From Crystallibacter degradans (GTDB lineage: Bacteria; Actinomycetota; Actinomycetes; Actinomycetales; Micrococcaceae): DNA of 64,000 bases. The stretch is taken from assembly GCF_012952295.1 (NCBI RefSeq), contig NZ_JABBCH010000008.1, positions 62,001-126,000 on the forward strand. The letters are read 5' to 3'. The notes beneath the pieces were generated by a model. It was given only the letters and a program-made list of their open reading frames with translations. It was not told the origin of the DNA and ran no database searches. Positions 10,892 through 28,870 of the stretch are shown in pieces (positions within the stretch are counted from its first letter, which is position 1; the number at the start of each line of letters is the position of its first letter). The translations under genes and the position numbers were made by a program.

Positions 10892-12076
10892 TTACCGGGC
10901 CAGGTACTCCTTGTGCTGCTTGTGCGCCTCGGCCACCTGGGCACGGATCCGGTCCACGTCCTTCGCCTTGTTGCGGTACTTCGGCTCCATGTGTTCAATC
11001 TGCCGCTCTTCCTCGCGCAGCGCGTTGTAGATGCGCTCGCGCTCCGCCGGGTCCGCGGTGTAGCTGAGGTCCAGGTAGTTGACCGCATGGCGGCGGGCGT
11101 TGTTGATGGCGGTCTGCGCCTTGCCTGCCTTGCTGAGCAGCGACGCCACGATGGTCACGACCAGCACACCGATAATGACCGTCAGGGACAGGCCAGTGGA
11201 GATCTCGACGACCGGAACCGGCTGGCCGTCATTGACGAACGGCAGGTTGTTTTCGTGCAGGGCATGCAGGATGAGCTTGACCCCGATGAAGGCGAGGATC
11301 GCGGCCAGGCCGTAGGACAGGTAGATCAACCGGTCCAGCAGGCCGTCGATCAGGAAGTACAGCTGGCGCAGGCCCATCAGTGAGAAGGCGGTGGCAGTAA
11401 AGACAATGTAGACGTTCTGCGTCAGGCCGAAGATGGCCGGAATCGAGTCCAGCGCGAACAGGATATCCGTTCCGCCGATCGCCACCATGACCAGCAGCAT
11501 CGGGGTCAGGACCTTCTTGCCGTTCTCCATGGTGAACAGCTTGTCGCCGTCGTAATCCTCGGAAGTGTGGAAGAACTTGCGGGCCAGCCGGATCATGAAG
11601 TTGTCGGCTTGGCCGCCGCCGTGGTCAGGCTTGATCAGGTTGCCTGCGGTGATCAGCAGGATCAGGCCGAAGGCGTAAAAGACCCAGGCAAAGGAGTTGA
11701 TCAGCGCGGCGCCGAGGAAGATGAAGCCAGTGCGGGCAATAAGCGAAAAAACGATGCCGAACAGCAGCACCTTCTGCTGGTCCTCGCGCGGGACCCGGAA
11801 GCTTGCGATGATGATCAGGAAGACAAACAGGTTGTCCACGGAGAGCGCCTTCTCCGTGATGTACCCGGCGAAATACTCCGAGCCCATTGCGGTGCCGCCG
11901 TAGATCAGGACGAGAATGCCGAAGATGATGGCGATGCCCACGTAGATGGAGGACCAAATGGCCGCTTCCTTCAGCTGGGGAACGTGCGCTTTGCGGATGT
12001 GGAAGAAGTAGTCAAAGGCCAGCAGGGCCAGGATAACCACTATCGTGACGCCCCAGATCAGGGGGGAAACAGTCAA
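10892..12076 (-). CDS. TerC-family integral membrane protein (probable Mn2+ exporter)
   Basis: A 394-residue membrane protein of the TerC/Alx family, which in several bacteria exports manganese. Eight or nine hydrophobic segments are visible, including the family signature 'GYITEKALSVDNLFVFLIIIA' region (about 72-92) with its conserved acidic and asparagine residues, and 'ALDSIPAIFGLTQN' (about 210). A hydrophilic C-terminal tail (~70 residues, rich in Arg/Glu/Lys) follows. The start appears to be TTG at 12076; no strong ribosome binding site is seen. The leader upstream carries a yybP-ykoY riboswitch (12118-12212), which supports a role in Mn2+ homeostasis. Confidence 0.9.
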   Translation of the reverse strand: MTVSPLIWGVTIVVILALLAFDYFFHIRKAHVPQLKEAAIWSSIYVGIAIIFGILVLIYGGTAMGSEYFAGYITEKALSVDNLFVFLIIIASFRVPREDQQKVLLFGIVFSLIARTGFIFLGAALINSFAWVFYAFGLILLITAGNLIKPDHGGGQADNFMIRLARKFFHTSEDYDGDKLFTMENGKKVLTPMLLVMVAIGGTDILFALDSIPAIFGLTQNVYIVFTATAFSLMGLRQLYFLIDGLLDRLIYLSYGLAAILAFIGVKLILHALHENNLPFVNDGQPVPVVEISTGLSLTVIIGVLVVTIVASLLSKAGKAQTAINNARRHAVNYLDLSYTADPAERERIYNALREEERQIEHMEPKYRNKAKDVDRIRAQVAEAHKQHKEYLAR

Positions 12077-13276: not shown

Positions 13277-14137
13277 CTACTCGTCGAGGATGACCTCGGA
13301 TGCTTCGGTGGACCGGTCCGTCACGGTAGTCGGCGCCTCCAGATGCACGGCACCGGAGGGCAGGATCCCCGCTCCACCGTAGTGCTCCATGACCCGCAAC
13401 TGCGCGACAACGTCCTCACCGGCATGGGCGGCCGGCAGATCCTTCCAGAACTCGAACCCGCCGCACTCAATTAGCTTGTCGCGGTCGTAAAGCACGCAGC
13501 CGCCAACCCAAGCCACCTTGTATAACCGCCACTCTCCGTCGGGAATCTCTAAGGACCGCGCAATGTGTGTCAGATTCGCCGCGTTGTGCAGCGTCCAGCG
13601 GGCGAACTGTTCATCCGTCCGGCGCACGCGCTCCGGCTTGACGGTCCCCTCCCACAGTTCAAAGGGCTCCTGCTCCTGAGGCCGCTCGTCGTCCAGGTAG
13701 GAGAGCCCCTGGACGGCTGCCCCGATAAAACCGCAGCCGGCTTCGCGGATGGCTGCGTACATCCGCGCGAGCATGCCCGGCTCCAGCCAGATGTCATTGT
13801 CCAGGAACAGGATCAGCGGCGCGTCGGCGAGGCCCAGCAGGAAATCGCGCTGCTCCGCCATGCCTTGCCGGGGCAGATGCTGCTCCAGCCTGACCTTGCG
13901 GCCTTGCGCCCGGAGCACTCGGACCATTGCTGCGACCGCCGGATGTTCCCAGGTGGGATCACCGTCGGTCTGGTCGCTGATGGTCACCGAGAACGCGGGC
14001 CCGTCCTGGGCGGCGAGTCCGGCCAGTGTCACGGCCAGTTCCGCCTCGCGCCCGTAGGTGGGGATCAGTACGTCCACGTCGGCCCGCGGCTCCTCGGGCA
14101 CCGGGAGCGCCCACTGCCCCGAGTGCCTGCGCGTCAT
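13277..14137 (-). CDS. Glycosyltransferase family 2
   Basis: A 286-residue GT-A fold transferase. The N-terminal nucleotide-binding strand 'VDVLIPTYGREAELAVTLAGL' and the metal-binding segment 'LILFLDNDIWLEPGML' (DxD-like, DND) are clear, followed by an acceptor-side region (VAWVGGCVLYDRDKL, GEDVVAQLRVMEHYGG). It is the last gene of the ALDH-hldE-GT2 operon; its ATG overlaps the hldE stop by four bases. It probably adds a sugar to the same glycan that receives heptose; donor and acceptor are unknown. Confidence 0.88.
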   Translation of the reverse strand: MTRRHSGQWALPVPEEPRADVDVLIPTYGREAELAVTLAGLAAQDGPAFSVTISDQTDGDPTWEHPAVAAMVRVLRAQGRKVRLEQHLPRQGMAEQRDFLLGLADAPLILFLDNDIWLEPGMLARMYAAIREAGCGFIGAAVQGLSYLDDERPQEQEPFELWEGTVKPERVRRTDEQFARWTLHNAANLTHIARSLEIPDGEWRLYKVAWVGGCVLYDRDKLIECGGFEFWKDLPAAHAGEDVVAQLRVMEHYGGAGILPSGAVHLEAPTTVTDRSTEASEVILDE

Positions 14138-15741
14138 GCCCGTTCCGCCTCTTCAGCCACAGGTCCGGCCGCAGCGGTGCCTTTAGCCGCGTCCCTGATT
14201 GTGGCCTTGGCGGCGCCGGTCGCCGGGTCGGCACCCGCGTCCGCGACCGAGCCGGTGCCCGTGCCGGTGCCCGTGCCGCGGATGCGGCGCACTACCGCCG
14301 TCGTCGAATGTTCGGAGACGTAGTCCAGGATGCTCACCTGTCCCCCGTACGCTTCGACCGCGGGCGTTTCCTCGAGCATCTGCGGCGAATAGTCCCCGCC
14401 CTTGGCATAGATGTCCGGTTTGACGGCCTCGATCAGCGGGATGGGGGTGTCCGTATCGAACACGGTCACGTAGTCCACGCAGCTCAGCGCCGCGATGATG
14501 CCTGCGCGGTCCCCCACCGGATTAATCGGCCGGTCCGGGCCCTTGAGCCGGCGCGCGGATTCATCGCTGTTCAACGCGACCACGAGCACGTCGCCGAGCT
14601 GTTTGGCCTGGTTCAGGTAGCGCGTGTGCCCGCGGTGCAGCACGTCGAAACAGCCGTTGGTCAGCACGATCCGCCGTCCCGCGGCCCGCTCGTCCCCGAG
14701 CCGCCGGGCCAGTTCCGCCGCGTCCAGGGCTGTGTCGCCGAAGCTGCCCAGGTGTCCGGCCAGATCCGCCGTGGTGCACACCGAGGTGCCCGGGCGGTGG
14801 ACGACGACGTCGGCAGCGGCCTGCGCAAGATCCAGGCAGGTGGTCAGCTGCAGCCCGGCGGCCCGCGCGAGCGTCAGGCAAGCCACAAAGGTGTCCCCCG
14901 CGCCGGAAGCCTGCTTCTCGGTAACGGGACGGGCCCACGTGCGGTGCGTACCGCCGTCGTTGTTGAGCAAGATGGTGCCGTCCCGGTCCAAGGTAACGAC
15001 GGCGGAGCGGGCACCCGCCGCTTCGAGCAGCTGCCCGCCGCTCGCGGCAACCAGGCCCGCCCGGTCCGAGTCCGGTTCGAAGGCGATGCCCAGGAGCCCC
15101 GCGGCTTCACCGGCGTTGGGCGTGACCAGATCCGGCTGCACCTGCGCCCAAGGCCTCGGATCGTGCGCGTCCACCACCGTCAGCCGGTCGCCGCGGTGGG
15201 CCGCCAGGGTTTCGCGCACGGCGCCGCCGAGGGCTCCGGAGCCGTAGTCGCAGACCACCACGGCGGCACTGGCCAGCAGTGCCTGTGGCACCGCGGCGGC
15301 CAGCTGCTCCACCGCATCGGCAGGCACCCGCTGGGTCTGTTCGTCCATCCGCAGCATGATCTGGTCACCGCCGATCACGCGGTACTTGGTGGTGGTGACG
15401 ACCTCCGGATGTTCGATGAGGCCGGAGACCTCCACGCCGGCCCCCGCCAGCAGTTCCCGCAGCCGGCGTCCGGCCTCGTCGCTGCCGGTGAGCCCGACAA
15501 TCCGTACCTGCGCGCCGAGCGCAGCAAGGTTCATGGCGGTGTTGGCGGCGCCGCCGGGGGCGTACTCGCGTCGGGCCATGTCCACCACGGGCGCAGGAGC
15601 CTCGCGGCAGAAACGCTCGATCCGGCCGGTGAACCAGCCGTCAAGCATGACGTCGCCGAGCACGGTGATCTGCGGGGCGGCCTCGGCCAGGCGCTGCGGC
15701 AGCCAGTCCGCGAGCCCGGAAATGCCTTCCAGCGAGCTCAT
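14134..15741 (-). CDS. hldE: Bifunctional heptose-7-phosphate kinase / heptose-1-phosphate adenylyltransferase (HldE type)
   Basis: Two-domain enzyme of 535 residues. Residues ~20-330 form a PfkB-type kinase (ITVLGDVMLDGWFTGRIERF, GGAANTAMNLAALG, active-site GAGDTF) that would phosphorylate D-glycero-D-manno-heptose 7-phosphate at C1. Residues ~350-490 form a nucleotidyltransferase (TNGCFDVLHRGHTRYLNQA, with the HxGH motif) that makes ADP-heptose. The domain order and spacing equal Escherichia coli HldE (~477 aa). A ~45-residue Ala/Gly-rich tail starting with four Gly-Thr pairs (14248-14280, hexanucleotide repeats) is extra. ATGA overlaps join it to ALDH upstream and GT2 downstream. A second HldE-type gene lies at 19318-20697. 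Confidence 0.9.
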   Translation of the reverse strand: MSSLEGISGLADWLPQRLAEAAPQITVLGDVMLDGWFTGRIERFCREAPAPVVDMARREYAPGGAANTAMNLAALGAQVRIVGLTGSDEAGRRLRELLAGAGVEVSGLIEHPEVVTTTKYRVIGGDQIMLRMDEQTQRVPADAVEQLAAAVPQALLASAAVVVCDYGSGALGGAVRETLAAHRGDRLTVVDAHDPRPWAQVQPDLVTPNAGEAAGLLGIAFEPDSDRAGLVAASGGQLLEAAGARSAVVTLDRDGTILLNNDGGTHRTWARPVTEKQASGAGDTFVACLTLARAAGLQLTTCLDLAQAAADVVVHRPGTSVCTTADLAGHLGSFGDTALDAAELARRLGDERAAGRRIVLTNGCFDVLHRGHTRYLNQAKQLGDVLVVALNSDESARRLKGPDRPINPVGDRAGIIAALSCVDYVTVFDTDTPIPLIEAVKPDIYAKGGDYSPQMLEETPAVEAYGGQVSILDYVSEHSTTAVVRRIRGTGTGTGTGSVADAGADPATGAAKATIRDAAKGTAAAGPVAEEAERA

Positions 15742-17186
15742 CGCGTCACCCCGCCGGGCAGGCCGACATGGACCACCTTGACCTGGGTGAATTCGTCCAG
15801 CAGCTCCGGGCCGTAGCCGAAACCGTGGCCGCTGTCCTTGCGTGGCTGGGCCGAACCACCCGGCGCGCCGCCGAAGACGGCATTGATCTTGACCGTGCCG
15901 ACCGGCAGCGCTGCAACCGCGTGTTGGGCGTGCGCCATGTCGGCCGTCAGCACGGTGGCGGCCAGGCCGTACCTCCCGGCGGCCGCGCGCTGCAGCCCCT
16001 CGTCGAAGCTGTCCACCACGGACACCGGTGCCACCGGCCCGAAAGTCTCCTCGGTCATGACCGTCATGTCCTCAGTGCAGCCGAGCAGCACGGTGGCCGG
16101 ATAGCGTGCGCCCGGCCCTTCGGGCAGCGCGCCGCCTTCCGCGGCCTTCGCGCCGGCCGCGAGCGCCTGGGCAACCTGGGCGTGGACTTCATCGCGCAGC
16201 CTCGTATCCACCAGCGGCGCGAACTGGCCAGTGTTGCGCTTGCGGGCCTCCTCGGCGAGGGCGTTGCAGAAGGCGTCGGCCACGTCGCGGTGCACGTAGA
16301 TCCGTTCCACCGAGGTGCAGATCTGGCCGCTGTTGGCGAACGCCCCGATGGCTGCCTGCTCCGCGGCCCACACCGGGTCCACGCCGGCGTCCACCAGCAG
16401 CGGATCATTGCCGCCGTTTTCGCGGATTACGTGCGCACCGGTCAGCGCCGCCGCCTGCGCGATCCTCGTCCCGGTGGCACTGGAGCCAACGTGGGCGAAA
16501 ACATCGACGCCGGGATGACTGGTCAGCGCCGAGCCTACCTGCGGTCCGCCGTTGAGCGTGATCAGGACGTCCGGCGGCAGCACCGCGGCCAGCACCTCCC
16601 CGAGTATCGCGCCCAAGTGCGGGCAGCGCTCGCTCGGCTTGTGCACTACAGCGTTGCCGGTTACCAATGCGGCGCCCAGCAGGCCCGCGGCGACGGCGAC
16701 CGGATCGTTCCACGGGGTCAGCAGGACCGCGACGCCGCGCGGCTCGGCCACGGTGTAGTCGGCCGCCATTCTGGAACCGCGCAGGCTCAGCCCGCGGTGA
16801 ACCGGTGCCAGTTCCGCGTATTGCCGCAGGGTTGCCGCGCCAGCCTTGACGCCTTCCAGGGCCTCGGCTTCGGGGCGGCCGGTTTCGCGCGCGTTCATCA
16901 GCGCCAGCCGTTCGGCGTTGTCGCTCAGCGCAGCGGCCGCCGCGTGCAGCAGTTCGCCGCGGGCTGCCGGGGCAAGGGCCGCCCAGCCCGGCTGCGCGGC
17001 GCGGGCCGCGGCAACCGCCTGGTCCACTTCCTCTGGGCTGGCCTCCGGCACGCTGCCCACGAGGCTTCCGTCGCGCGGATTGTGAATGGTGATGGCGGCT
17101 TCGCCCGACGCGCCTGTCTTGCCGGACGTGGCGGAGTTGGCTGCTTCGTTTTCCTGCTGCAGGACTGTCTCGGAACCGGTTGTCAT
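15738..17186 (-). CDS. Aldehyde dehydrogenase family protein
   Basis: NAD(P)-dependent aldehyde dehydrogenase, about 482 residues. The catalytic glutamate region (VIRENGGNDPLLVDAGVD) and the nucleophilic cysteine segment (FANSGQICTSVERIYVH) are intact, as is the cofactor-binding 'HVGSSATGTRIAQAAA'. ATG 17186 is preceded by AAAAGGAGCG; the longer frame to 17276 lacks similarity. It is the first gene of the operon ALDH-hldE-GT2, which suggests it oxidises an aldehyde sugar or an intermediate linked to the heptose glycan, though no substrate can be read. It is divergent from the GT9 gene at 17390. Confidence 0.9.
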   Translation of the reverse strand: MTTGSETVLQQENEAANSATSGKTGASGEAAITIHNPRDGSLVGSVPEASPEEVDQAVAAARAAQPGWAALAPAARGELLHAAAAALSDNAERLALMNARETGRPEAEALEGVKAGAATLRQYAELAPVHRGLSLRGSRMAADYTVAEPRGVAVLLTPWNDPVAVAAGLLGAALVTGNAVVHKPSERCPHLGAILGEVLAAVLPPDVLITLNGGPQVGSALTSHPGVDVFAHVGSSATGTRIAQAAALTGAHVIRENGGNDPLLVDAGVDPVWAAEQAAIGAFANSGQICTSVERIYVHRDVADAFCNALAEEARKRNTGQFAPLVDTRLRDEVHAQVAQALAAGAKAAEGGALPEGPGARYPATVLLGCTEDMTVMTEETFGPVAPVSVVDSFDEGLQRAAAGRYGLAATVLTADMAHAQHAVAALPVGTVKINAVFGGAPGGSAQPRKDSGHGFGYGPELLDEFTQVKVVHVGLPGGVTR

Positions 17187-17389
17187 ATCGCTCCTTTTCC
17201 AGATCGGCCCGGCCGCGCACAAAAGTGCCGGCCGAACAAAGCGTTCTGCTGACTCCGTACCCCGTTGCCTGCCCATTCAGACACTGACGATCCAACCTCT
17301 TTGAAGCACTGGCCAGCGGTGCGGAAGCGCTTTAGGGTGAAGCTCAGAACAGATACTGCCGATGCGCGCCGGCGAAGATGGAGGTACAC

Positions 17390-18589
17390 GTGGAACAGGA
17401 AATCGACGTCGACAAGGTGGCCACCGGCGGAGCGGACTTCGGCGGCGAGCGGCTCGATGCAACGGCGGGGCAGGGCCTCGTCGGCCCGCTGCTGGGTCGG
17501 TTCGACGGCGTCAAGAAGATCGCAGTACTCCGTGGCGGTGGACTCGGCGACCTGATGTTTGCCGTGCCGGCCATGCAGTCGCTGGCCGCCGCATACCCGG
17601 AGGCAACCATCACCTTGCTCGGGGCACCGTTACATGCGGCGCTGCTGGACGGCCGGCCGGGTCCGGTGGACCGGGTCGAGGTGCTGCCCTTTGCGCACGG
17701 CGTGCGGCCGGGGCCCGAGGATCCCGTGGCGGTGGAGGAGTTCCTGGCTCGGATGCGCGAAGATCGCTTCGATCTGGCCGTCCAACTCCACGGCGGCGGG
17801 CGCTTTTCCAATCCGTTCCTGCTCGAGCTGCAGGCCCGGCACACCGTGGGCGCCCGGACCGAGGATGCTGCGGCCCTGGAACGCACCATCCCCTACCTCT
17901 ATTACCAGCACGAGGTGCTCCGCGCGCTGGAAGTGGTCGGCCTCGCCGGTGCCGCCCCAGTGGCGCTGCAGCCCCAGTTGACGGTGCTGCCAGAGGAAGA
18001 GACGGCAGCTGCCGGCCTGCTGGACGCCGGGCGGCCCTCGCTGGTGACCATCCACCCCGGCGCCTCGGACCAACGGAGGCAATGGCCGCCGTCGTACTTT
18101 GCGCAGGTCGCCGCGTGGGCGGCGCAGGATGGCTGCCAGGTCCTCCTCATCGGGGGTTCGGAGGATGCGGATTTGGCCGACGACGTGGTTTCCCAGGCGC
18201 AGGAATTAATGCACGACGCCGGGAGCATCCGTTCCGTGGCCGGGCAGCTGGGGCTCGGGGAACTGGCCGCGTTGCTGCGCGCGAGCGACGTCATGCTGGG
18301 AAATGACAGCGGGCCGCGGCACCTGGCCCAGGCCGTGGGCACGCCTACGGTCGGGATCTACTGGGCCGGGAACGTGATTATGGCCGGTGCGCTGGGACGG
18401 ACGGTGCACCGGGTCCACATGTCCTGGATGACGCACTGCCCGGTCTGCGGATCCGATCTGACGCAGGTCGGCTGGACCGCCGAGCGCTGCGAACACGAGT
18501 TTCCGCTGACCGAGCAGATACGCCCCGAAGACGTCTACTCGGACGTCCGCCAGCTTAGGGCCACGAGTCTTCTTCTTCGTGGCAAATAA
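17390..18589 (+). CDS. Glycosyltransferase family 9 (heptosyltransferase-like)
   Basis: A GT-B transferase of 399 residues. The N-terminal 'IAVLRGGGLGDLMFAVPAMQSLAAAYP' and the donor-site 'VTIHPGASDQRRQWPPSYFAQ' plus 'LGNDSGPRHLAQAVGTPTVGIY' are the hallmarks of GT9 heptosyltransferases. GTG 17390 is chosen because GGAGG lies exactly five bases before it; an ATG at 17378 would overlap that site. A cysteine cluster near the C-terminus (HCPVCGSDL ... ERCEHEF) may bind metal. It is the only plus-strand gene inside the cluster core, and its 3' end overlaps the convergent SDR gene by 35 bp. Confidence 0.88.
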   Translation: MEQEIDVDKVATGGADFGGERLDATAGQGLVGPLLGRFDGVKKIAVLRGGGLGDLMFAVPAMQSLAAAYPEATITLLGAPLHAALLDGRPGPVDRVEVLPFAHGVRPGPEDPVAVEEFLARMREDRFDLAVQLHGGGRFSNPFLLELQARHTVGARTEDAAALERTIPYLYYQHEVLRALEVVGLAGAAPVALQPQLTVLPEEETAAAGLLDAGRPSLVTIHPGASDQRRQWPPSYFAQVAAWAAQDGCQVLLIGGSEDADLADDVVSQAQELMHDAGSIRSVAGQLGLGELAALLRASDVMLGNDSGPRHLAQAVGTPTVGIYWAGNVIMAGALGRTVHRVHMSWMTHCPVCGSDLTQVGWTAERCEHEFPLTEQIRPEDVYSDVRQLRATSLLLRGK

Positions 18590-19283
18590 CCATCTCGCGT
18601 ACCTCGCAGCCCTTCGGCTGTGAGAGTGCGAAGAGGATGGCTTCGGCTACGCGCTCGGGATCGTTAAGCCGGGAGTCGTCCTGCGGCTTGTACTGCTCCG
18701 TGCGGTCGTCGAAGAACCGGGTCTTCATGCCGGCCGGAATCATTGTGGTGACGCCGACCTGTCCGCGGGTCTCCGCCGCCAGCGCACGGCTGAATCCGAC
18801 GACGCCGAACTTCGAGGCGCAGTAGGCGGTGGCGTCCGAGACTGCCTTGATGCCCAGCGACGAGGCCACTGTGATGACCCGGCCATGCGAAGCCATCAGG
18901 TGCGGCAGCGCGGCGCGGACCACGGAGACGGTGCCCATCAGGTTCACGCCGATCACCTTGTCCCACTCGTCCGCCGGGACGTCTTCCAGCCGACCGCAGC
19001 GGTCGATGCCTGCCGCGGTGACCACTGCATCCAGCCCGTCCAGCGTTTCCGCTGCCTGCTGCACTGCCGCGGTGACGGCCTCACGGTCGGAGACATCGAC
19101 TTCCAAGCACTTCACGCCGGAGACGCGGCTGACGTCGCGGTCCAGCACCACCGGGGTGCCGCCGGCCTCACGGACCGCTTCGACGACGGCGGCACCGAGG
19201 CCGGAACCGCCGCCGGTGACCAAGACTCGACCGGGATTGCCGGGATTGTGGGGATTGGTAGGCGTGGATCCTGCTGATTTCAT
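18555..19283 (-). CDS. Classical SDR-family oxidoreductase
   Basis: A 242-residue short-chain dehydrogenase. The cofactor motif TGGGSGLG (about 23-30), the YCASK active-site motif and 'VTAAGIDRCG' are intact. Its size fits classical SDRs, not the longer NDP-sugar epimerases such as HldD (~310 aa), so it is unlikely to be the missing heptose epimerase. It follows the second HldE-type gene with a 34-bp gap and probably belongs to that operon. Substrate unknown; oxidation or reduction of a sugar or lipid carbonyl is a guess from context. Confidence 0.88.
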   Translation of the reverse strand: MKSAGSTPTNPHNPGNPGRVLVTGGGSGLGAAVVEAVREAGGTPVVLDRDVSRVSGVKCLEVDVSDREAVTAAVQQAAETLDGLDAVVTAAGIDRCGRLEDVPADEWDKVIGVNLMGTVSVVRAALPHLMASHGRVITVASSLGIKAVSDATAYCASKFGVVGFSRALAAETRGQVGVTTMIPAGMKTRFFDDRTEQYKPQDDSRLNDPERVAEAILFALSQPKGCEVREMVICHEEEDSWP

Positions 19284-19317
19284 CTGTTCCTCCTAGTGGA
19301 CGTGATGGTCTTGTTGG

Positions 19318-20697
19318 CTAGCCGACCTTGGCCAGGGCCGCGGCCAGCCGGGTGGTGGAGCGCGCCGGATGGTAGGGAACCGTCACGGCGCGTCCGCCCC
19401 AGGTCTGCAGCAGCGCGGCTTCGGGCAGCTGGTCCGCCGTGTAGTCCCCGCCCTTGACCCAGAGGTCCGGCCGCAGCTGTTCCAGTGCGGCCTCCGGGGT
19501 CTGCTCGTCGAAGACCAGCACCGCGTCCACGCATTCCAGCGAGAGCAGCAGTTCGGCACGGTCCTGCTGGCCCATGATGGGACGGTCTTCGCCCTTGAGC
19601 CGCGTGACCGAGGCGTCCGAGTTGAGGCAGACGATCAGGCAGTCGCCCAACCCGCGGGCAGCCGCCAGGGTCCGGGCGTGGCCGGCGTGCAGCAGGTCGA
19701 AGCAGCCGCCGGTCGCCACCACGGTGCCGCCGGCTTCCCGCGTCTGCCGGGCCACCCGCAGCGCATCCACGCCGCCGCCGTGCAGCTGCTCCGGCGCGGC
19801 CTCTTCGCGCAGACTGGCCACCCCGCCGGCAGCAAGGAACGCGGCCGCCTGTTGCACGGCCCCCTCGGCCGCGGCCGGAAGCGGCTGCCCGCCCATCAGC
19901 CCGACGGCGAGCGCGCCGGCAAAGCGGTCACCGGCACCGCAGGGATCCCCCACCTGTACCTTGGGTGCGGGAATTACCTGCGGCAGGCCGTCGTCGGCCA
20001 GGACCAATGCGCCGGCGCCGCCGAGCGTAACGATTACCGACCCGCACTGCCAGGCACGGCGCAGTTCCTCCGCTGCCAGGGCAGCCTCGCGGGCACCGCC
20101 GTCCTGCTTTGTGGACAGCCCGGCTGCCCGGATCGCCTCCGGCAAGTTGGGCGTGACCGCGGTGACGCCGGGCACCGGAGTGCTTCCGGAAGGGTGCGGG
20201 TCCCAGACCACGGGTATCCTGCCGGCCAGTTGCTGTAGAAGTTCACGCAGCCGGGTATTCGCGGCCAGGCCCCGCCCGTAGTCCGCCACGACCACGGCGT
20301 CGGCCTGTTCGAGGGCGGCGAGCATTCCGTCAGTCACGTCAGGAATCTTCACCTCGCCGCAGCCCTCGTCGAACCGCACAACGCACTGCCCGGCGGCCCG
20401 GATCCGGGTCTTCACCGGTGTGGGTGCGCCGGATGGGCCGGCGATGACCTCTATCCCGTCAAGGGCGCCGCGCAGCTGTCCGGAAACGCCGTCGTCGGAC
20501 AGCACGGTGACCAGCCGGACGGCATGCCCGTCGCGCTCCAGCATCCGTGCCACCAGCCCGGCACCGCCGGCCCGGTAGTCCGTCTCCGCCACGTCCACCA
20601 CAGGCACCGGTGCATCCGGGGACAGCCTGCTGGCATCGCCGTGCACATCGGCGTCGAGCAGCACATCCCCCACCACCACAATGTTCTTAGGACTCAT
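19318..20697 (-). CDS. Second HldE-type PfkB kinase / nucleotidyltransferase fusion
   Basis: A 459-residue fusion like the gene at 14134 but clearly diverged. The kinase half has 'GDVLLDADVHGDASRLSPDAPVPVVD', 'RAGGAGLVARML' and active-site GAGDRF; the transferase half has 'ATGGCFDLLHAGHARTLAAA' and 'VCLNSDASVTRLKGEDRPI'. Both active sites look intact. Two such fusions in one cluster suggest different nucleotides, anomers or sugars, or a division of labour between kinase and transferase steps. The ATG overlaps the 3' end of the SIS-domain gene by 11 bp, so it is in the long minus-strand operon. Confidence 0.87.
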   Translation of the reverse strand: MSPKNIVVVGDVLLDADVHGDASRLSPDAPVPVVDVAETDYRAGGAGLVARMLERDGHAVRLVTVLSDDGVSGQLRGALDGIEVIAGPSGAPTPVKTRIRAAGQCVVRFDEGCGEVKIPDVTDGMLAALEQADAVVVADYGRGLAANTRLRELLQQLAGRIPVVWDPHPSGSTPVPGVTAVTPNLPEAIRAAGLSTKQDGGAREAALAAEELRRAWQCGSVIVTLGGAGALVLADDGLPQVIPAPKVQVGDPCGAGDRFAGALAVGLMGGQPLPAAAEGAVQQAAAFLAAGGVASLREEAAPEQLHGGGVDALRVARQTREAGGTVVATGGCFDLLHAGHARTLAAARGLGDCLIVCLNSDASVTRLKGEDRPIMGQQDRAELLLSLECVDAVLVFDEQTPEAALEQLRPDLWVKGGDYTADQLPEAALLQTWGGRAVTVPYHPARSTTRLAAALAKVG

Positions 20698-21553
20698 GAA
20701 TGCCCCTCCTATCCGTACCGCGCGAACCGGCCGTGCGGCCCGAGCCGGCCGACGGGGCTACGGCCGCCGTTTCTGTTGCCCGGCGCCGGGCCACCTCGGC
20801 GTCGAACGCCCGGCAGATGGCGTGCAGGGCCATCAGATGCCCCTCCTGCACATTGGCCGGCAGCGCATCGATGGCGACGTAGTCGTCGCAGATCCTGGTC
20901 AGCGGGTTCGGGGCGCTGCCGGTCAGCGCCCATGTGGTCACGCCCAGGCTGCGGGCGGCCTCCACCGCATTGAGCAGATTGGCGCTCTTGCCGCTGGTGG
21001 TCAGCAGCACCAGCACGTCCCCCTCGCGCCCGTGGCCGCGCACCTGCCGGGCGAACAGCTGATCAAAACCGTAGTCGTTGCCGATGGCGGTGACCGCGGA
21101 GGTTTCCGCATGCAGCGAGATGGCCGAGAACGCCTCCCGCTCGCCGTCGAACCGGCCCACCAGCTCGGCAGTCAGGTGCTGTGCCTCCGCGGCGGACCCG
21201 CCGTTGCCGGCGGCCAGCAGCCGTTGCCCGCCGAGCAGCCGGTCGGCCAGGTCGATGCCCCAGGCCGCCAGCTGCGGAGCCTGGCAGCGCAGCGAATCGA
21301 CGGCCGGAGCCACCTGCCGCAGATGCTCCAGCACTGCGTCCAGGCCCCCGGCCGTTTCCTCCCCGGCACCGTCCTGGTGCCCAGGGCCGGGTTCAGTAGA
21401 AGGCACGACGGCGGGACTCGGCACCGGGACGAGGGCCGGCCCCTGCGGCCGGGCGTAAGTTTCCGGATCCGCTTGCGTCCTACCGGCGGCCTGGTTGCGT
21501 GCGGTTGCTTGCCGGCCGCCCGTCTGGGTGGTGGTGATCGACACTGGTCTCAC
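20687..21553 (-). CDS. gmhA: Phosphoheptose isomerase (SIS domain), GmhA-like, with extended N-terminus
   Basis: Sedoheptulose-7-phosphate isomerase, the first step of heptose synthesis. The SIS domain shows GmhA-specific blocks: '[20 protein letters not shown]', the '[20 protein letters not shown]' region and '[18 protein letters not shown]'. GmhA proteins are usually ~190-200 residues; this frame gives 288 because of a ~70-residue Pro/Thr/Gly-rich N-terminal stretch and a ~30-residue C-terminal tail. GTG 21553 forms a GTGA overlap with the upstream glycosyltransferase stop, which argues for the long form, but an internal GTG start cannot be excluded. Confidence 0.87.
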
Positions 21554-22812
21554 AATGCTTCCCCTTCCAGCTGGCGCACTGCCCCGCTCATGGCACCGGA
21601 GTTCCGGGCCAGGTTGTAGGCCTTTTCGGTATCGGCGGCAACGCGGTCCCAGGAGTAACGGGTGCGGACCCGCTTCCGGCCGGCCCTGCCCAGCTCCTGC
21701 GCCAGCTGCGGATCCAGCAGCAGCTCCGCCAGTGCGCAGGCCACCGCATCGGGGTCCTTCGGCGGCACCTGCAGGCCGGTCTTGCGGTCCACCACCGTGT
21801 CGATCAAACCGCCCACGGACGCCGCGACCACGGGAACACCGCACGCCATGGCTTCCAGCGGCACAATGCCGAACGGCTCGTACCACGGCACGCAGACAAC
21901 GGCGTCGGCGCTGCGCAGCACGGTAGGAATCTTGTCCTGCGGAATCTGGCCGCGCAGCACCACCTGGTCCGCGACACCGAGCTCGCCGGCCAGCTCCATC
22001 AAACGCCGCGCTTCGGGATCCCCCGCCAGCCCATCCGGCCCCGAAGCTCCGCCGACAACCAGCAGTTCGACGTCGTCAATCCCTTGGTCTTTCAGCAGCC
22101 GCAGCGCGCGGACCACCAAGTCAACGCCCTTGCGCGGCACCAGCCGGCCTACGCTGATGATCCGGTGGCGGCGGCCGCGCGGCTCGACGTCGCCAGTGGC
22201 ACCGAACAGTTCCAGGTCCACGCCGCAGGGGGCAATGGAAATGTTGCTCCGCGGCACGCCCATGGCGGTCAACTCGAAGACCTCGTCGGAGCAGGTGGCG
22301 ATGATCCGGTCCACGTTGCGTCCCACAGACGGTTCGAGCCAGGCGCGCTGGGCGGGGCTGGTGTCCTGAACGCCCTGGTGCCTGCGCTTGACCGTGCCGA
22401 GGGCGTGGAACGTCTGCAGGACGGGCACCGGGTAACCGGAACCGTAGTTCCGCCGGGCCGCATCAAGGGCGGCGACGCCGGACATCCAGAAATGGCCGTG
22501 GACGATATCCGGCGGGTTGCAGTCCCAGTCCGCCGAGATTCCGTCCGCCAGCTGGCCCATGAACGGCAGCAGTTCGTCCTTGGACACCGGCTCGGGCGGT
22601 CCGGCATCGATGTGGACGACTTCCACGCCGTGCCGCATCCGCACGCGCGCGGGCAGGGCCGCGTTGTCCCGCCGGGTATAAACGGTGACGGAGTGCCCGC
22701 GCTTGGCCAGGGAGGCCGAAAGGGCGGCGACGTGCACGTTCTGGCCGCCGGCGTCCACTCCTCCCAGTACGGCCAGCGGGCTGGCGTGTTCGGAAACCAT
22801 GGAAATCCTCAC
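21550..22812 (-). CDS. Glycosyltransferase family 4
   Basis: A 420-residue GT-B transferase resembling the MshA/sucrose-synthase-like branch of GT4. The N-terminus holds '[19 protein letters not shown]' and the donor domain holds '[20 protein letters not shown]' and the EX7E motif region '[20 protein letters not shown]'. It is embedded in the minus-strand operon with ATGA/GTGA overlaps on both sides. It probably extends the glycan made by this cluster; donor and acceptor are unknown. Confidence 0.9.
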
Positions 22813-23813
22813 AGCTCTCTCCTCTCGTTCGCTGCAATAACCCTGCCGGCGTGTGTCCTTGTTTCGGCCAGCACCGCGTCCCAGTTGTCCAGGAAGGCCG
22901 CCAGTCCGTGGCGCTGCAGCACTGTTTCGCGTGCCACTGCACCGCGGGCGCGGGCCTCCTCGGGTTCCTGCACCAGCCGCGCCGCCTCCCGGCGCAGCTC
23001 GTCCACATTCGTGGAGATGGCGCCGGCCTCCGGCGGGACCGCCCGGGCAGCTTCTGTGGTGGCCAGCGCGATGACCGGCATGCCCAGATGCATGGCTTCC
23101 AGCAGGGCCAGTCCCAGCGAAGTCCAGCGCAGCGGATGCACGTACGCGCGGCAGCGGGCCAGTTCGGCATGCAGCAACTTGCCGGGCAGGTCGCCGCGGA
23201 CAGTCAGCTGGTCAGGCCCCAGCCCGGTGGCGGAGGCGAGCTCATCCGTGCCCATGCCGAAGACTTCCAGATGGCCGGCCAGCGCGAATTCGGGCAGCAG
23301 GTCCGTGCCGGTCACACGCCAGCGGCGGACGGGTTCGTTGACCACCACGGCCAGATGGTCCAGCTCACCGGTGTAGAGGTGGCCGGGGTCCACGACGCCG
23401 TGTTCGATCACCGTGGTGGGCGCGGTGCCGCAGTCCCAGAACAGCCGGTTGAAGTGGGTCACGTGCACCACCGGAATGGATTGCTGGTCCGCCAGCGGGT
23501 GCAGGGAATTGGGCACATCGCCCTTGGGCGTGTTGTGCTCCAGGAAGACCGCCGGAATGTCGCGGCCCGGGCGCCTTCCCAGCAGCCGCTCGCATTCGGC
23601 CAGTTCCTCCGGCCGCTGCAGCACTACAACGTCGATATCCGACTCGCGCAGGTCCTCCGGCGCGATGTCGCGGACATTTTCGGGCCAATCGCGCCCGGCC
23701 CGGCCCAGGCCCCAGGGTCCGCCGTCGGGCGTTGCGGGCAGCAGGTAATCGTGGCGGCCGCGCACAAACGCGTCGGTCCAGCCGCCGTGGACATGCCAGA
23801 GCAGTATCTTCAT
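22809..23813 (-). CDS. Glycosyltransferase (GT4-like, GT-B fold)
   Basis: A 334-residue protein with a shorter N-terminal domain that starts '[19 protein letters not shown]'. The acceptor side has '[16 protein letters not shown]' and '[15 protein letters not shown]', and the donor side has '[20 protein letters not shown]', the E-x7-E-like element of GT4. Four-base overlaps link it to its neighbours. Genes of this form occur with heptose genes in other actinobacteria as I recall, which I cannot verify here. Donor unknown. Confidence 0.83.
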
Positions 23814-24877
23814 GCGTTCCTCGTCTCTCTGCGGGTGGGCAAGGAAGTCACTCCGGTGGTCAGCCGCTGCACGGCCGCCACCACTTCTTCAGGTTCAACA
23901 CCGGACAGGCAGGGGTGGCCGGGCACGGGGCAGACGCGGGCGCGGCTGAGCCGGCACGGCGCGTTCTGGTCCCCCAGCAGCTCCAGCGGCACTTTGTACG
24001 GCGCCCAGCGCACGGCCGGAACCACCGGGGCGAAAAGGCTGACCACGGGAGTTCCCACGGCGGCGGCCAGGTGCGCGGGACCGGTATTACCGGTTACGAC
24101 GGCGGAAGCACCGGCCAGCACGCCGGCGAGGCTGTGAAGGTCCGTCCGGCCGCCCAGGTCCAAGGCATCGGGGCCTGCCACCGTCGCGGTCAGTTCCGCC
24201 TCCGCGGGACCGCCCGTGACCACCACTCGGTAGCCGGCGGCTATGAGCAGTTCCACCGCGGCCGCATGGTGCAGTGGCGGCCAGGCCCTTGCCGGGACAG
24301 CGGCACCGGGGTGGACGGCGATGTACGGTTCGGTTCCTACCAGCCAGGCGACATCCGGAATGTCGCGCACGCGCAGCCGTCCGTCGTCGTTAGCTGGCAG
24401 ACGGTAGCCCGCAGCCGCGGCGATCTGCAGGGCGCGCTCGGCCTCCGGCTGGTCTTCGGGAAAATCTTCGCCGGGCTTGAGCCGCACATCCAGCAGCGAA
24501 CCGGCATAGTCCGTGGACGCCGCGGTGATCCGTTCCACCCCGGCGAGCCGCAGCAGCATGGCCAGCGGCAGCGGGGACTGGTGGAACGACGTCAGGATTA
24601 CGGCTTCTTCTATCTGCCGGCCGCGCACCCAATCGCACAGCGCGGCGACGTGGTCCTCGGTGACCGGCGGGGCCGGATCCACGATCCAGGGGCTGGCCCA
24701 GGTGAACACGTCCGTCACGCCCGGCAACAGCTTGGCCGCCGCGGTCCCCTGCGGCCCGCACAGCATCAGGACCTCGTTGGGCCGCGCGCTCACACCGGCG
24801 GCAACGGCGCGGACGGCAGGGCCGGCAAGCAGCACGTCCCCCGCACTGTCCAGCCTGGCTACCAGCACCCGGCTCAT
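23810..24877 (-). CDS. Glycosyltransferase family 9 (heptosyltransferase-like)
   Basis: A 355-residue GT-B transferase. 'VLVARLDSAGDVLLAGPAVRAVA' at the N-terminus and 'YIAVHPGAAVPARAWPPLHH' plus 'VVTGNTGPAHLAAAVGTPVVSLF' in the donor domain are diagnostic for GT9. A C-terminal cysteine pair in 'CRLSRARVCPVPGHPCLSG' matches a feature common in this family. It directly follows gmhB, its ATG overlapping the gmhB stop by four bases, so it very likely uses the heptose the cluster makes. Confidence 0.9.
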   Translation of the reverse strand: MSRVLVARLDSAGDVLLAGPAVRAVAAGVSARPNEVLMLCGPQGTAAAKLLPGVTDVFTWASPWIVDPAPPVTEDHVAALCDWVRGRQIEEAVILTSFHQSPLPLAMLLRLAGVERITAASTDYAGSLLDVRLKPGEDFPEDQPEAERALQIAAAAGYRLPANDDGRLRVRDIPDVAWLVGTEPYIAVHPGAAVPARAWPPLHHAAAVELLIAAGYRVVVTGGPAEAELTATVAGPDALDLGGRTDLHSLAGVLAGASAVVTGNTGPAHLAAAVGTPVVSLFAPVVPAVRWAPYKVPLELLGDQNAPCRLSRARVCPVPGHPCLSGVEPEEVVAAVQRLTTGVTSLPTRRETRNA

Positions 24878-25464
24878 AGGCTGCCCCGCGCCACGTCGCC
24901 ATCCCGGACCAGGTCACCTTCGTGCAGGAAGCCGGTTCCCAGCAGCAGCTCAAGGGCCGCCGCCAGATCCGGCGCGACCAGCTCCGCCGCGTCGATCTCC
25001 TCGGCGCGGGTGACCGGGGTCGGCACCAGCACACCGGTTGCTCCGGCTGCAGCCGCCGCCTCGACGTCGGCGCCGATGTCCCCGATGAAAGCGACTTCAG
25101 ACGGCTGCAGGCCAAGCCGGCGGCAAGCACTTAGGATCATCCCCGGCGCCGGCTTCCGGCACTCGCAGCCGTCCGCCGGTCCGTGCGGGCAGACTTCCCA
25201 GAGGTCGAACGGTCCGAGCAGTTCCGCGACCCGGGCGTTGACCGCGTCGACCTGCGGGCGCTGCAGCAGTCCCCGGGCAATGCCGGACTGGTTGGTCAGG
25301 ACGCCGCAGCGCAGTCCGGCGCGGCGGACCGCGTCAAGGGCCTCGGCGGCGCCGGGCATCGGCCGGACCTGTTGCGGGTCCGCGTTGTATGGGACGTCCA
25401 CCACCAGCGTGCCGTCCCGGTCGAAGAGGACGGCCTGCGGCGGACCAAGAATGTGGCGACTCAT
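24874..25464 (-). CDS. gmhB: D,D-heptose 1,7-bisphosphate 7-phosphatase
   Basis: HAD-IIIA phosphatase of 196 residues, the usual GmhB length. The catalytic motif DRDGTLV (residues ~15-21), 'GVLTNQSGIARGL' and the zinc-binding loop 'CPHGPADGCECRKPAPGM' are all present, and the last is specific to GmhB-type enzymes. It removes the C7 phosphate from heptose 1,7-bisphosphate between the two HldE steps. It is the first gene of the minus-strand operon gmhB-GT9-GT4-GT4-gmhA-hldE2-SDR. A 150-bp divergent promoter region separates it from the GT9 gene at 25614. Confidence 0.92.
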   Translation of the reverse strand: MSRHILGPPQAVLFDRDGTLVVDVPYNADPQQVRPMPGAAEALDAVRRAGLRCGVLTNQSGIARGLLQRPQVDAVNARVAELLGPFDLWEVCPHGPADGCECRKPAPGMILSACRRLGLQPSEVAFIGDIGADVEAAAAAGATGVLVPTPVTRAEEIDAAELVAPDLAAALELLLGTGFLHEGDLVRDGDVARGSL

Positions 25465-25613
25465 ACCAGCACTGTTCCCGTAGAAGCAGCGGCCTAAACA
25501 CTTCCGCTGCGACTTCTTTTACTTCTTCTCCCCCAACTCTCACGTTCCCGCCGGTCCGGCCGCGGCATGTGGCACCATAAAACCAACACCGATGAAAGGG
25601 ACTTTCCACCACA

Positions 25614-26570
25614 ATGGAGCAATTGATGCGGGACGGGCTGGAGCCCGATGGCAGGCCGGAACTGCTGGTGCTGCGCGCCTTGAAGCTCGGCGATCTGCTG
25701 GTGGCGGTTCCCGCCCTGCACGCCCTGCGGCGGGCCTATCCGGACCACCGGATCATCTATGCCGCCCAGGGCTGGCTCCGTCCGATGATCGAACTGGTCG
25801 GCTCCGTGGACGATCTGCTCGATACCCACGGCCTGGATGTCCCGTTGGCGCTCTCCCCGGGTCGGGTCGATATTGCCGTGAACCTGCATGGCAGCGGGCC
25901 GGAGAGCCGCGGACGGATCGCGGCGCTGCAGGCCAAACGGATCATTGGCCACCTGTCCGAGGAGCGGGCCGGTCCGCGCTGGCAGGACGGCGTCCATGAG
26001 CGCGAGCGCTGGGCCCGGCTGGTCCATTGGCATGGCATTGACGCCGATCCGCTTGACTACCGGCTGCAGCCGCCGGCGGTTGCCAGCCCCCGGCCCGGTG
26101 CCGTGGTCATTCACGTAGGCGCCGCCTACGGCAGCCGGCTCTGGCCGGTGGAACGCTTTGCCGAAGTCTCGCGGGAACTGGTCGCTTCGGGGCACGAGGT
26201 GCTCTTTACCGGCAGCGGCGGCGAACGGCCTCGTGCCGAAAAGGTAGCCGCCCTCGCCAGCCTCCCCGCTGAAACCGTAGTAGCAGGCGAGCTGGGACTA
26301 GCTGACTTCGCGGCGGCCGTCGCAGACGCGGCACTGGTCATTTCGGCGGACACCGGAGCCGCCCATCTCGCCTCCGCGTACGGCCGTCCCTCCGTGGTCA
26401 TCTTCGGGCCGGCCCCGGTAGCCGAATGGGGGCCGCCGCCCGGACCGCACATCGTGCTGACAAACGAAGCACTCCGCGTCGGGGACACCTTTTCGGACCA
26501 GCCGGACCCGGCGCTCCTGGCCGTCAGCGTGCAAGACGTGCTGTCCGCGGTGTCCCAGCTAGGCCTCTGA
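25614..26570 (+). CDS. Glycosyltransferase family 9 (heptosyltransferase-like)
   Basis: Third GT9 gene of the cluster, 318 residues. It shows 'LLVLRALKLGDLLVAVPALHALRRAYP', 'VVIHVGAAYGSRLWPVERFAEV' and 'LVISADTGAAHLASAYGRPSVVIFGP'. Start at ATG 25614; an internal ATG at 25626 with GGAG six bases before it is also plausible. It is divergent from gmhB and convergent with the sigma-factor gene (24-bp gap). Its overall form is closest to ADP-heptose:LPS heptosyltransferases, although no lipopolysaccharide is expected in this organism. Confidence 0.9.
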   Translation: MEQLMRDGLEPDGRPELLVLRALKLGDLLVAVPALHALRRAYPDHRIIYAAQGWLRPMIELVGSVDDLLDTHGLDVPLALSPGRVDIAVNLHGSGPESRGRIAALQAKRIIGHLSEERAGPRWQDGVHERERWARLVHWHGIDADPLDYRLQPPAVASPRPGAVVIHVGAAYGSRLWPVERFAEVSRELVASGHEVLFTGSGGERPRAEKVAALASLPAETVVAGELGLADFAAAVADAALVISADTGAAHLASAYGRPSVVIFGPAPVAEWGPPPGPHIVLTNEALRVGDTFSDQPDPALLAVSVQDVLSAVSQLGL

Positions 26571-26594: not shown

Positions 26595-27371
26595 CTAGGC
26601 AGTGCGCACGCTAGCGCCGTTGTCGGCGTCGTGTTCTTCCAGCAACTGGCGCTGCAGCTTCACCAGGATCCGGGCCAGCGCACGGGAGACCTGCATCTGA
26701 GTCATCCCGACCCGTTCTCCGACCCGCTGCTGGGATTCCTCCTCGAAGTACCGGTAGTACAGCAACTGCTGCTCGCGCCGGCTGAGCTCGCGGATAGCGC
26801 CGCGCAGCATGAGCCGCTCCTCCGCCTTGTCCAGCCTGTTGTCCGTGCCGCCCAGCAAGTCGGCCAGGTTCCGGCCCTCGGCATCCGCTTCCAGCGATTC
26901 CGGCCGCAGGCTGTTCTGGCAGTTCAGGGCCTCGGCTACCGCATCCAGGCTCTCGCCCAGTTCTTCCGCCAGCTCCGCCAGAAAAGGGTCCCGCCCCAGC
27001 CGCTGAGCCAGGGCCGGCCCGGCTTTGGCCGCCGCCGTTCGCAGGTCCTGGATATGACGCGGAGGCCGGATCACCCAGCAGCTGTCCCGCAGATACCGTT
27101 TGAGTTCGCCGGTCACCGTGGGCATCGCATAAGCGGGAAAATCCGTTCCGCGTTCAGGGTCGAAACCACGTATCGCCTTGAGCAGCCCCATCCGGGCAAC
27201 CTGCTTCAAGTCATCAAGCTCGCGCCCGGTGCCCACGTAGCTCCGCGCAGCCGTCTCCGCAATGTCCAGGTGTCCCAGCACCAGTTCCTCTTCAAGCGCC
27301 CGGCGGAGCGAGCCCTTTGCGCGCCGCGCCTGGCGAAAGAGTATCTTGTTGTTGCTGGTGGCAAGCTGCAT
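26595..27371 (-). CDS. RNA polymerase sigma factor, SigB/SigF-like
   Basis: A 258-residue alternative sigma-70 factor. Region 2 ('YVGTGRELDDLKQVARMGLLKAIRGFDPERGTDFPAYA'), the region 2.4/3 junction ('MPTVTGELKRYLRDSCWVIRPPRH'), and region 4 with the helix-turn-helix 'RVGERVGMTQMQVSRALARI' are visible. It falls in the stress/sporulation group (SigB/F/G). No RsbW-type anti-sigma gene is adjacent, but a STAS-like gene lies 156 bp upstream. A SigB-type promoter candidate precedes it (27408-27433), suggesting autoregulation. Confidence 0.88.
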   Translation of the reverse strand: MQLATSNNKILFRQARRAKGSLRRALEEELVLGHLDIAETAARSYVGTGRELDDLKQVARMGLLKAIRGFDPERGTDFPAYAMPTVTGELKRYLRDSCWVIRPPRHIQDLRTAAAKAGPALAQRLGRDPFLAELAEELGESLDAVAEALNCQNSLRPESLEADAEGRNLADLLGGTDNRLDKAEERLMLRGAIRELSRREQQLLYYRYFEEESQQRVGERVGMTQMQVSRALARILVKLQRQLLEEHDADNGASVRTA

Positions 27372-27527: not shown

Positions 27528-27917
27528 TCAGGCGCTGTGCAGGTGCAGGAGCCGCGCGACGTCGGAATAAGTATCCGCCGGCACCCTGTCCATGCGGCAG
27601 ACCGGGGAAAGCTTCGGCAGCAGCAAGACAACGACGCCGACACCCTCCAGCACACAGCGCACTTCGGAATATATGGCCGTCGCATTGGCGCTTGAGGGCG
27701 CGGGCAGGTAGCCAAGCATCTCAAGCGCCTCGGTCTCCAGGTGCCGCGCCTCGCGCAGATCCAGGGTAAGGGAGACGTCTGCAGCCAGGGAGTGCGCCCG
27801 CCGCAGAACGCACAGCAGCGCCTGGCAGCTGGCGGCGGTCAGGCAGCCCTGGACATCGATCCGCGCGGTTTTGAGATCGGCGTCGAGGCCGACGACGAGC
27901 TGCAGTTTGTGATCCAT
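27528..27917 (-). CDS. STAS-domain-like protein (possible anti-sigma factor antagonist)
   Basis: A 129-residue protein whose first ~75 residues resemble a STAS fold: 'ARIDVQGCLTAASCQALLCVLRRAH', then a central 'VSLTLDLREARHLETEALEML'. In anti-sigma antagonists the corresponding block reads D-L-x-x-x-x-x-D-S-S-G-L with a phosphorylated serine; here it is H-L-E-T-E-A-L, so the serine is replaced by threonine or lost. Position 156 bp upstream of a SigB-type sigma gene supports a regulatory role. The C-terminal half is not recognised. Confidence 0.6.
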   Translation of the reverse strand: MDHKLQLVVGLDADLKTARIDVQGCLTAASCQALLCVLRRAHSLAADVSLTLDLREARHLETEALEMLGYLPAPSSANATAIYSEVRCVLEGVGVVVLLLPKLSPVCRMDRVPADTYSDVARLLHLHSA

Positions 27918-28007: not shown

Positions 28008-28367
28008 TCAATCTCCGGAGCGTCCTGCTGCCGCTTGGCTCTTCGGCTGCTTGGAATCGACAACCTTTAACCCGATCACACAGCCAATGATCCCGAGGAG
28101 GAAAAGAATCTTCAGCAGCCCCGCGGCCTCACCGGTGAATACCACCGCATAGGCGACGGTCAGCACCGCGCCCGCACCTGTCCAGACGGCGTAAGCCGTA
28201 CCGATCGGGATTCCCCGCATGGCATAGCCCAGACCCACCATGCTCAGGGACAGGGCGATAAAGAACAGCACTGTCGGTCCCGGCCGTGACAGCCCCTCCG
28301 ACGCGCCGAGGGCGGTTGCCCAGACGGCTTCCAGCACTGCACTGATAAGCAAGACAGTCCAATACAT
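28008..28367 (-). CDS. SMR-family transporter, guanidinium exporter (Gdx)-like subunit
   Basis: A 119-residue protein with four membrane helices and the SMR fold. The conserved glutamate lies in 'SAVLEAVWATALG', and the TM3 motif reads 'AYAVWTGAGAVLT', which matches the Gdx/SugE branch (GAVxT) rather than the EmrE/QacE branch. A short basic tail (SKQPKSQAAAGRSG) is added. It starts three bases after the stop of the other SMR gene, so the two probably form a heterodimer. A guanidine-III riboswitch heads the operon. Confidence 0.9.
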   Translation of the reverse strand: MYWTVLLISAVLEAVWATALGASEGLSRPGPTVLFFIALSLSMVGLGYAMRGIPIGTAYAVWTGAGAVLTVAYAVVFTGEAAGLLKILFLLGIIGCVIGLKVVDSKQPKSQAAAGRSGD

Positions 28368-28685: not shown

Positions 28686-28697
28686 CGGAAATCCTTT

Positions 28698-28738: not shown

Positions 28739-28870
28739 AGACCTGCAGCTTCGAGGTCTTGTTAAGAAGATATCAACGTACGACGGCGGTGGGTGGGTTT
28801 GGTTGCCGATCTCACCACCAGAAGCGGCCAACCTTGTCCGAAGGAGCGGCACGCGTGGCACGATGGACAA

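Follow-up and report, generated by a model that had tools for sequence, protein, structure and literature searches.

A two-module actinobacterial gene cluster predicted to make activated heptose, and its association with a SigB/SigF/SigG-like sigma factor gene

We analysed a 64,000-nucleotide stretch of the Crystallibacter degradans genome, hereafter called the window, which corresponds to positions 62001-126000 of contig NZ_JABBCH010000008.1; the source genome, 4.96 Mb in 124 contigs, was searched as well. The host is an Arthrobacter-like member of the Micrococcaceae. The window harbors twelve clustered genes for predicted enzymes of nucleoside diphosphate (NDP)-heptose synthesis, six glycosyltransferases and two dehydrogenases, next to a sigma factor gene. 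On the minus strand, a long operon starts with gmhB (24874-25464), coding for a HAD-IIIA protein predicted to be the heptose-1,7-bisphosphate 7-phosphatase. It continues with the genes for the heptosyltransferase-like GT9b (23810-24877), the divergent GT4 enzyme GT4b (22809-23813), GT4a, which resembles MshA and sucrose-phosphate synthase (21550-22812), the SIS protein GmhA, a predicted sedoheptulose-7-phosphate isomerase (20687-21544), and HldE2, the second and divergent of two HldE-type fusions (19318-20697). These six genes form the core module. The open reading frame called for GmhA is over-long, with a probable GTG start at about 21544. A classical short-chain dehydrogenase, distinct from HldD, is encoded further along the same strand (18555-19283). 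Also on the minus strand are the genes for an aldehyde dehydrogenase family protein (15738-17276) and, in the extension module, HldE1, a fusion of a PfkB kinase with a heptose-1-phosphate nucleotidyltransferase (14134-15741), with, as the last gene of that module, a GT2 glycosyltransferase (13277-14137). Two other heptosyltransferase-like proteins, GT9a (17378-18589) and GT9c (25614-26570), are encoded on the plus strand, the latter divergently from gmhB. The candidate regulator is a SigB/SigF/SigG-like sigma factor (26595-27371, minus strand). Adjacent genes of one strand overlap at six junctions, by 4 bases in five cases and by 11 in the sixth, which suggests translational coupling, and two gaps lie between divergent genes (17277-17377 and 25465-25613). 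All the enzymes named by a first-pass annotation of this DNA (GmhA, GmhB, two HldE-type proteins, three GT9, two GT4 and one GT2) were recovered where it had placed them, with Pfam and NCBIfam in agreement. The two dehydrogenases and the neighbouring sigma gene had gone unmentioned.

Family membership was judged with the NCBIfam curated cut-offs and Pfam, and solved relatives were identified through PDB matches. The catalytic and metal-binding residues were those relevant in these families, with PDB alignments alongside. By family, all four NDP-heptose activities are encoded together, and their catalytic and metal-binding residues are present and nearly invariant in up to 86 aligned rows, the one exception being HldE2, which lacks the Asn of GGAAN. 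HldE1 has GAGD and HxGH in 86/86 rows and the GGAAN Asn in 85/86, and it matched a heptose kinase (4e84) and a cytidylyltransferase-like protein (5x9q). HldE2 has GAGD in 64/64 rows. The His and Glu of QHLTAE in GmhA are found in 70/70 rows and a late His in 68/70 (PDB 5i01, E 1.1e-37), and GmhB has DRD, as well as the Cys residues of CPH and CxC, in 60/60 rows (PDB 4pnh, E 5.3e-22). No protein of the genome exceeded the cut-off for the L,D-heptose epimerase HldD, the best reaching 130.2 bits against 274.6.

GT9a, GT9b and GT9c are the only three GT9 matches of the genome. They have the GD and GxxHLA residues and exceed the PF01075 cut-off (GT9b, E 6.3e-25; GT9c, E 3.4e-21), and none reaches a GT9 subfamily cut-off. 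The catalytic Asp and His are each present in 58/58 rows of GT9b and in 30/32 rows of GT9c. The predicted model of GT9a, the one GT9 protein that was modelled, was closest to GT9 enzymes that include WaaF, and WaaC was also matched. The claim of the first-pass annotation that a Gram-positive bacterium encodes the route from sedoheptulose 7-phosphate to NDP-D,D-heptose together with GT9 enzymes is well backed by family membership, by conserved genes and residues and by the GT9a model, which is a confident one, whereas the part assigning that route to a surface glycan or glycolipid found no direct support. Among the other enzymes, the aldehyde dehydrogenase (PF00171, E 1.5e-109) has its catalytic Cys and Glu in 50/50 rows, the short-chain dehydrogenase (PF00106, E 1.2e-39) has the Tyr and Lys of YxxxK in 68/68, and GT2 (PF00535, E 2.7e-12) has both Asp of DxD in 50/50, its PDB match, to GlfT2, being weak (E 3e-4). 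Separately, the C-terminal part of GT9a contains a conserved CxxC..CxH pattern in 66/67 rows, possibly a metal knuckle, and GT9b has a different set of conserved Cys ending in GHPCL, with the Cys present in 58/58 rows.

A search with HldE1 across 84,980 species genomes returned at least 565 stretches with a relative, of which 80 loci were kept; the closest named relative of the window HldE1 among them was that of Arthrobacter sp. VKM Ac-2550 (94%). Both HldEs were found in 53 of the 80 loci, and the six core genes plus HldE1 in 43. In 40 of these 43 loci the order GmhB-GT9b-GT4b-GT4a-GmhA-HldE2 was kept. Of 296 genomes sampled evenly over the phylum, 33 had an HldE match at E <=1e-45. HldE1 lacked HldE2 at the same locus in 27/80 cases, some of them near contig ends. 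We considered that in Rathayibacter, Clavibacter and similar bacteria HldE1 might be independent of the core; this found no support, with a GmhA match in 13/13 genomes searched among these cases (12 at E <1e-50) and HldE2 adjoining GmhA at 6/6 of the GmhA places fetched from them. The core module alone, with HldE2 and no HldE1, was found in three genomes (G045, G060 and G015). A plasmid location was also considered and dropped, as relatives of HldE2 (E 1e-40) were present on just 7/72,556 plasmid records.

In a quick tree, one branch with full support separated HldE1 from HldE2, with 58 rows on one side and 35 on the other. This tree used 93 of the 150 available rows, each labelled according to which window gene it matched best, and had no outgroup; that there are two old HldE lineages is firm, whereas which of them arose first is not. 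The two lineages also differ at the fifth position of the STTR5 motif, which was Arg in 61/64 HldE2 rows and His in 41, Arg in 32 and Gln in 7 of 86 HldE1 rows. According to a commentary (PMC11573728), STTR5 is characteristic of nucleotidyltransferases able to accept CTP and UTP as well, and HldE2 may therefore be the more promiscuous of the two. HldE2 shares this Arg and the didomain kinase/nucleotidyltransferase type with the cross-kingdom NDP-heptose enzymes of Tang et al. (Science 2024), as relayed in parts of two commentaries (PMC11573728 and PMC11461863). In contrast with the (F/L)XXGRSTT motif of those enzymes, the window HldE2 has YHPARSTT, which is no strict match.

The association between the cluster and the sigma gene was assessed in 61 genomes sampled from the family, with a sigma match defined as E <=1e-20. 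The sigma gene was present in 15/15 genomes with the two-HldE cluster, of which two (G028 and G031) had HldE1 matched in two pieces, versus 1/42 (G052) of the remaining genomes. It was absent from 3/3 genomes with an HldE2-only cluster and present in one with a broken cluster. Fisher's test, which ignores kinship, gave a p value of 7e-13, or 2e-12 if the HldE2-only and broken clusters were counted as without. As a control, TerC, the neighbour on the other side, was found in 61/61 genomes. Close linkage cannot by itself account for the co-occurrence, since in some genomes kilobases separate the sigma gene from the cluster or the two are on different contigs. The source genome contains one other match to the sigma factor, with 27% identity. 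The broken-cluster genome (G006) shows at its locus L030 an apparent remnant, with HldE2 in two pieces, GT4a and GT9c, and it has kept the sigma gene.

A promoter-like element, GTTT-N16-GGGAA, is located about 35 nucleotides before gmhB (25475-25499, minus strand) and is the only GTTT-N14-18-GGGWA site of the window. We looked for this pattern in 54 distinct gmhB upstream stretches, obtained from 61 orthologues after removal of duplicates and short stretches. It was found in 43 of them versus 0.3 expected from order-1 resampling, and the spacer was 16 bases long in 41/49 loci. Among the stretches without the element were those of the three HldE2-only clusters, of Nocardia and Pseudonocardiaceae loci, and some with variants such as GGGCA. 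The same pattern preceded HldE1 in 4/80 cases (0.3 expected) and GT9a in 7/67 (0.4 expected), and it was found in none of the stretches before the genes for the aldehyde dehydrogenase (52; the start may be over-long, which weakens this count), GT9c (33), the short-chain dehydrogenase (67), HldE2 (64), the sigma factor (22) or TerC (3). Across 98 loci, the stricter GTTT-N15-17-GGGAAC occurred at 55 sites, including 36 before gmhB, 4 before GT9a and 1 before GT4a, and the reversed pattern occurred twice. A canonical SigF-type promoter (GTTT..GGGTA) before gmhB was rejected, with only 2/54 cases, and an inverted repeat over the promoter, striking in a few sequences, was dropped after comparison with shuffled ones (arms with a score of at least 7 in 9/45 versus 4/45 when shuffled).

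The sugar pathway is genuine and conserved, its host group was not expected, and its link to one sigma factor is newly seen. Our preferred reading, to which we assign a probability of roughly 0.6, is that of a two-module, sigma-controlled pathway that makes activated D-glycero-D-manno-heptose in the cytosol and builds a heptose-containing oligosaccharide. From the computed families, residues, gene order, HldE lineages, sigma co-occurrence and promoter-like element, we infer the following scheme. GmhA would convert sedoheptulose 7-phosphate to heptose 7-phosphate, HldE2 in the core and HldE1 in the extension would phosphorylate C1, and GmhB would take off the C7 phosphate. The nucleotidyltransferase domains of the HldEs would load ADP, HldE2 perhaps using CTP or UTP as well. 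Heptose would be transferred by the three GT9 enzymes, while GT4a, GT4b and GT2 would add other sugars or prime the chain, and the two dehydrogenases probably modify a sugar or the acceptor. The sigma factor, whose gene adjoins the cluster in some of these genomes and lies elsewhere in others, would read the promoter before gmhB, and we propose that the product would thus be made on demand.

The window shares with known NDP-heptose biosynthesis the four activities, by family and residues, and GT9 enzymes downstream. It differs from it by two divergent HldE lineages, by an HldD search with nothing over cut-off, by the absence of an LpxC match and by its actinobacterial host. Similarly, its GT9 proteins share the GT9 fold and the catalytic Asp and His with WaaC, WaaF and the Veillonella parvula enzyme 3tov, but they belong to a host without a marker of the lipid A pathway. 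A 3-deoxy-D-manno-octulosonic acid (Kdo)-lipid A acceptor is therefore not expected. LpxC had no match in the source genome, with the control positive in 4/14 genomes, in line with the earlier expectation that genes for lipopolysaccharide (LPS) would be lacking.

A number of observations weigh against the proposed pathway. With the full-length HldE model NF008454 (cut-off 521), HldE1 and HldE2 scored 363.5 and 265.1 bits, GmhA scored 153.8 bits against a cut-off of 276 (NF010546) and GmhB 119.2 against 178 (NF006506), all below. Among these models only the one for the nucleotidyltransferase domain (cut-off 181.5) was passed, by HldE1 with 192.5 bits, HldE2 being narrowly below with 178.7. All scores are far above chance, however; we regard these proteins as divergent members and claim a likely function rather than strict equivalog membership. 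HldE2 has GGAGL instead of GGAAN in 64/64 rows, and without the Asn its kinase substrate could differ. Some of the loci counted as cluster-bearing have genes matched in two pieces (e.g., L025 and L066). The sigma protein reached 215.2 bits with TIGR02980, its best family, below the cut-off of 234.35, hence the designation SigB/F/G-like; it shares with SigB, SigF and SigG this best match and a GTTT-type -35-like element near the cluster, but the -10-like half, GGGAA, differs from the GGGTAT of SigB and SigF. Nor is there a sign of a broad regulon: genome-wide, GTTT-N15-17-GGGAAC occurred at 21 sites versus 21 reversed, and the GGGTAT version at 9 versus 9, neither being an enrichment. It may be that the regulon is very small, or that the element has another reader. 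The sigma gene is not a strict neighbour of the cluster, being adjacent in only 11 of the 21 loci whose flank extends for 2.8 kb or more. Finally, sigma gene and cluster could travel as one accessory set, and related genomes are not independent.

The nature of the product and of its acceptor was considered next to the preferred reading. It is possible that a heptose oligosaccharide is built on a lipid at the inner face of the membrane, flipped by an unlinked transporter and displayed on the wall or membrane. The LPS core is built by GT9 enzymes whose function is known, WaaF and WaaC being those matched by the GT9a model, and PimA and PimB', which act on lipids, are among the GT4 relatives seen. 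GT4b has a GT4 fold with many tied matches. However, no flippase, polymerase or ligase of glycans was found among 20 flank representatives scanned with Pfam, unlinked transporters not having been searched for. No non-cluster sense-strand family recurs in more than 13/98 loci (flank genes were called with a simple custom script and antisense open reading frames excluded), and the clearly polytopic flank families among those checked were amino-acid permeases, DUF4383 and an aromatic-acid-exporter type. In a hydropathy scan, 7/12 cluster proteins had one or two segments above 1.6, the highest at 1.99, versus eight segments and 2.73 for TerC; given also that their families are soluble or peripheral, no cluster protein looks polytopic. 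These results and the missing LpxC match, together with the resemblance of one GT4 to enzymes with small soluble acceptors, speak against the surface glycan or glycolipid proposed at first. About equally likely is a soluble small glycoside that is made under stress and either kept in the cell or excreted. GT4a would then act like MshA and sucrose-phosphate synthase and prime on a small acceptor, perhaps a phosphorylated one. The best solved relatives of GT4a (PF00534, E 2e-41) are sucrose-phosphate synthase 6kih (E 1.2e-56) and MshA 3c4q (E 7.2e-51), and it scored 242.1 bits with the MshA model TIGR03449, below the cut-off of 462.5. Its acceptor-side Lys and Arg, which have a role in MshA, are conserved in 64/64 rows, but two phosphate-binding positions are changed in 64/64 rows (Phe for Tyr and Ala for Thr), and PimA is also among its weaker matches. 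The sigma factor resembles a family that includes stress sigmas, and a Frankia gene named heptosyltransferase, which may or may not be homologous to the cluster, is reported as up under salt stress (PMC5563000). Six glycosyltransferases are nevertheless many for a small solute.

The remaining explanations appear less probable. A sugar pathway for a natural product akin to septacidin or bleomycin is unlikely. A carbamoyltransferase gene (L027:4567-6204) lies within an HldE2-only form of the cluster, and a Streptomyces fungicidicus plasmid (L137) has a similar carbamoyltransferase-bearing core set plus an epimerase, hinting that the core is reused for other sugars, with a likeness to the bleomycin genes. 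Bleomycin glycosylation uses a carbamoyltransferase according to part of PMC7017467, and septacidin of Streptomyces, named in PMC11461863 as a product of Streptomyces fimbriatus, uses this metabolite; the heptose nucleotide route of an actinobacterium is what the two pathways have in common. Unlike the septacidin pathway, the window cluster has three GT9 and no aglycone genes, none recurring in the scanned flank families either; it also lacks the carbamoyltransferase, and its conservation is wide and ordered. That the kinase/nucleotidyltransferases use another sugar phosphate, so that no heptose is made, seems quite unlikely: the family scores below cut-off and the GGAGL motif of HldE2 would fit, but GmhA, GmhB, HldE and GT9 co-occur and heptose families are the best or near-best matches. 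Protein heptosylation by GT9a in the manner of TibC is the least probable of all.

The sugar pathway as such is already known; the sigma co-occurrence and the gmhB promoter-like element are new. The first-pass annotation had argued that a Gram-positive source of ADP-heptose would matter, ADP-heptose being an innate-immune signal in Gram-negatives, a point largely pre-empted by NDP-heptose outside LPS bacteria as described in PMC11573728 and PMC11461863; the term Gram-positive occurs 0 times in the latter. In 2008, L-glycero-D-manno-heptose was stated to be confined to Gram-negative bacteria in the structures analysed (PMC2543016, in part), and a GT9 has been noted in one Cryobacterium strain (PMC12113805, in part). 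Searches of the open-licence PMC literature, by title and abstract opening, turned up no description of the cluster or its product. We consider somewhat doubtful a broader proposal, in which many actinobacteria make a heptose glycan that has no relation to LPS, teichoic acid or known natural products, controlled by a dedicated sigma factor of the SigB/F-like type that has the cluster as its main or only target, with one of the two old HldE lineages supplying ADP-heptose and the other possibly CDP- or UDP-heptose to core and extension. If true, a common group of single-membrane bacteria would produce both heptose nucleotides and a heptose glycan, switched on by a sigma factor of its own, which would provide a testable role for actinobacterial heptose enzymes and a simple genetic handle. 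It would also point to a physiological role of CDP- or UDP-heptose, called elusive in PMC11573728.

A few other features were observed. At the place of GT2 in the window, some loci have a soluble-looking family without Pfam match (L051:11538-12476, plus strand), nearest to HldE1 in 13 loci, which is possibly a GT2 replacement. The sigma gene is adjoined by a 129-residue open reading frame (27528-27917, minus strand) with 0 Pfam or NCBIfam matches, possibly a regulator or not a gene. A Guanidine-III riboswitch (28695-28762, minus strand; Rfam RF01763, 51.8 bits for a gathering threshold of 36) precedes small open reading frames at 28371-28685 and 28008-28367, the latter coding for a small multidrug resistance protein, a common arrangement for guanidine export. 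Lastly, the TerC-family membrane protein (10892-12076, minus strand) is encoded twice in the source genome, the other copy, of 94% identity, being on a different contig.

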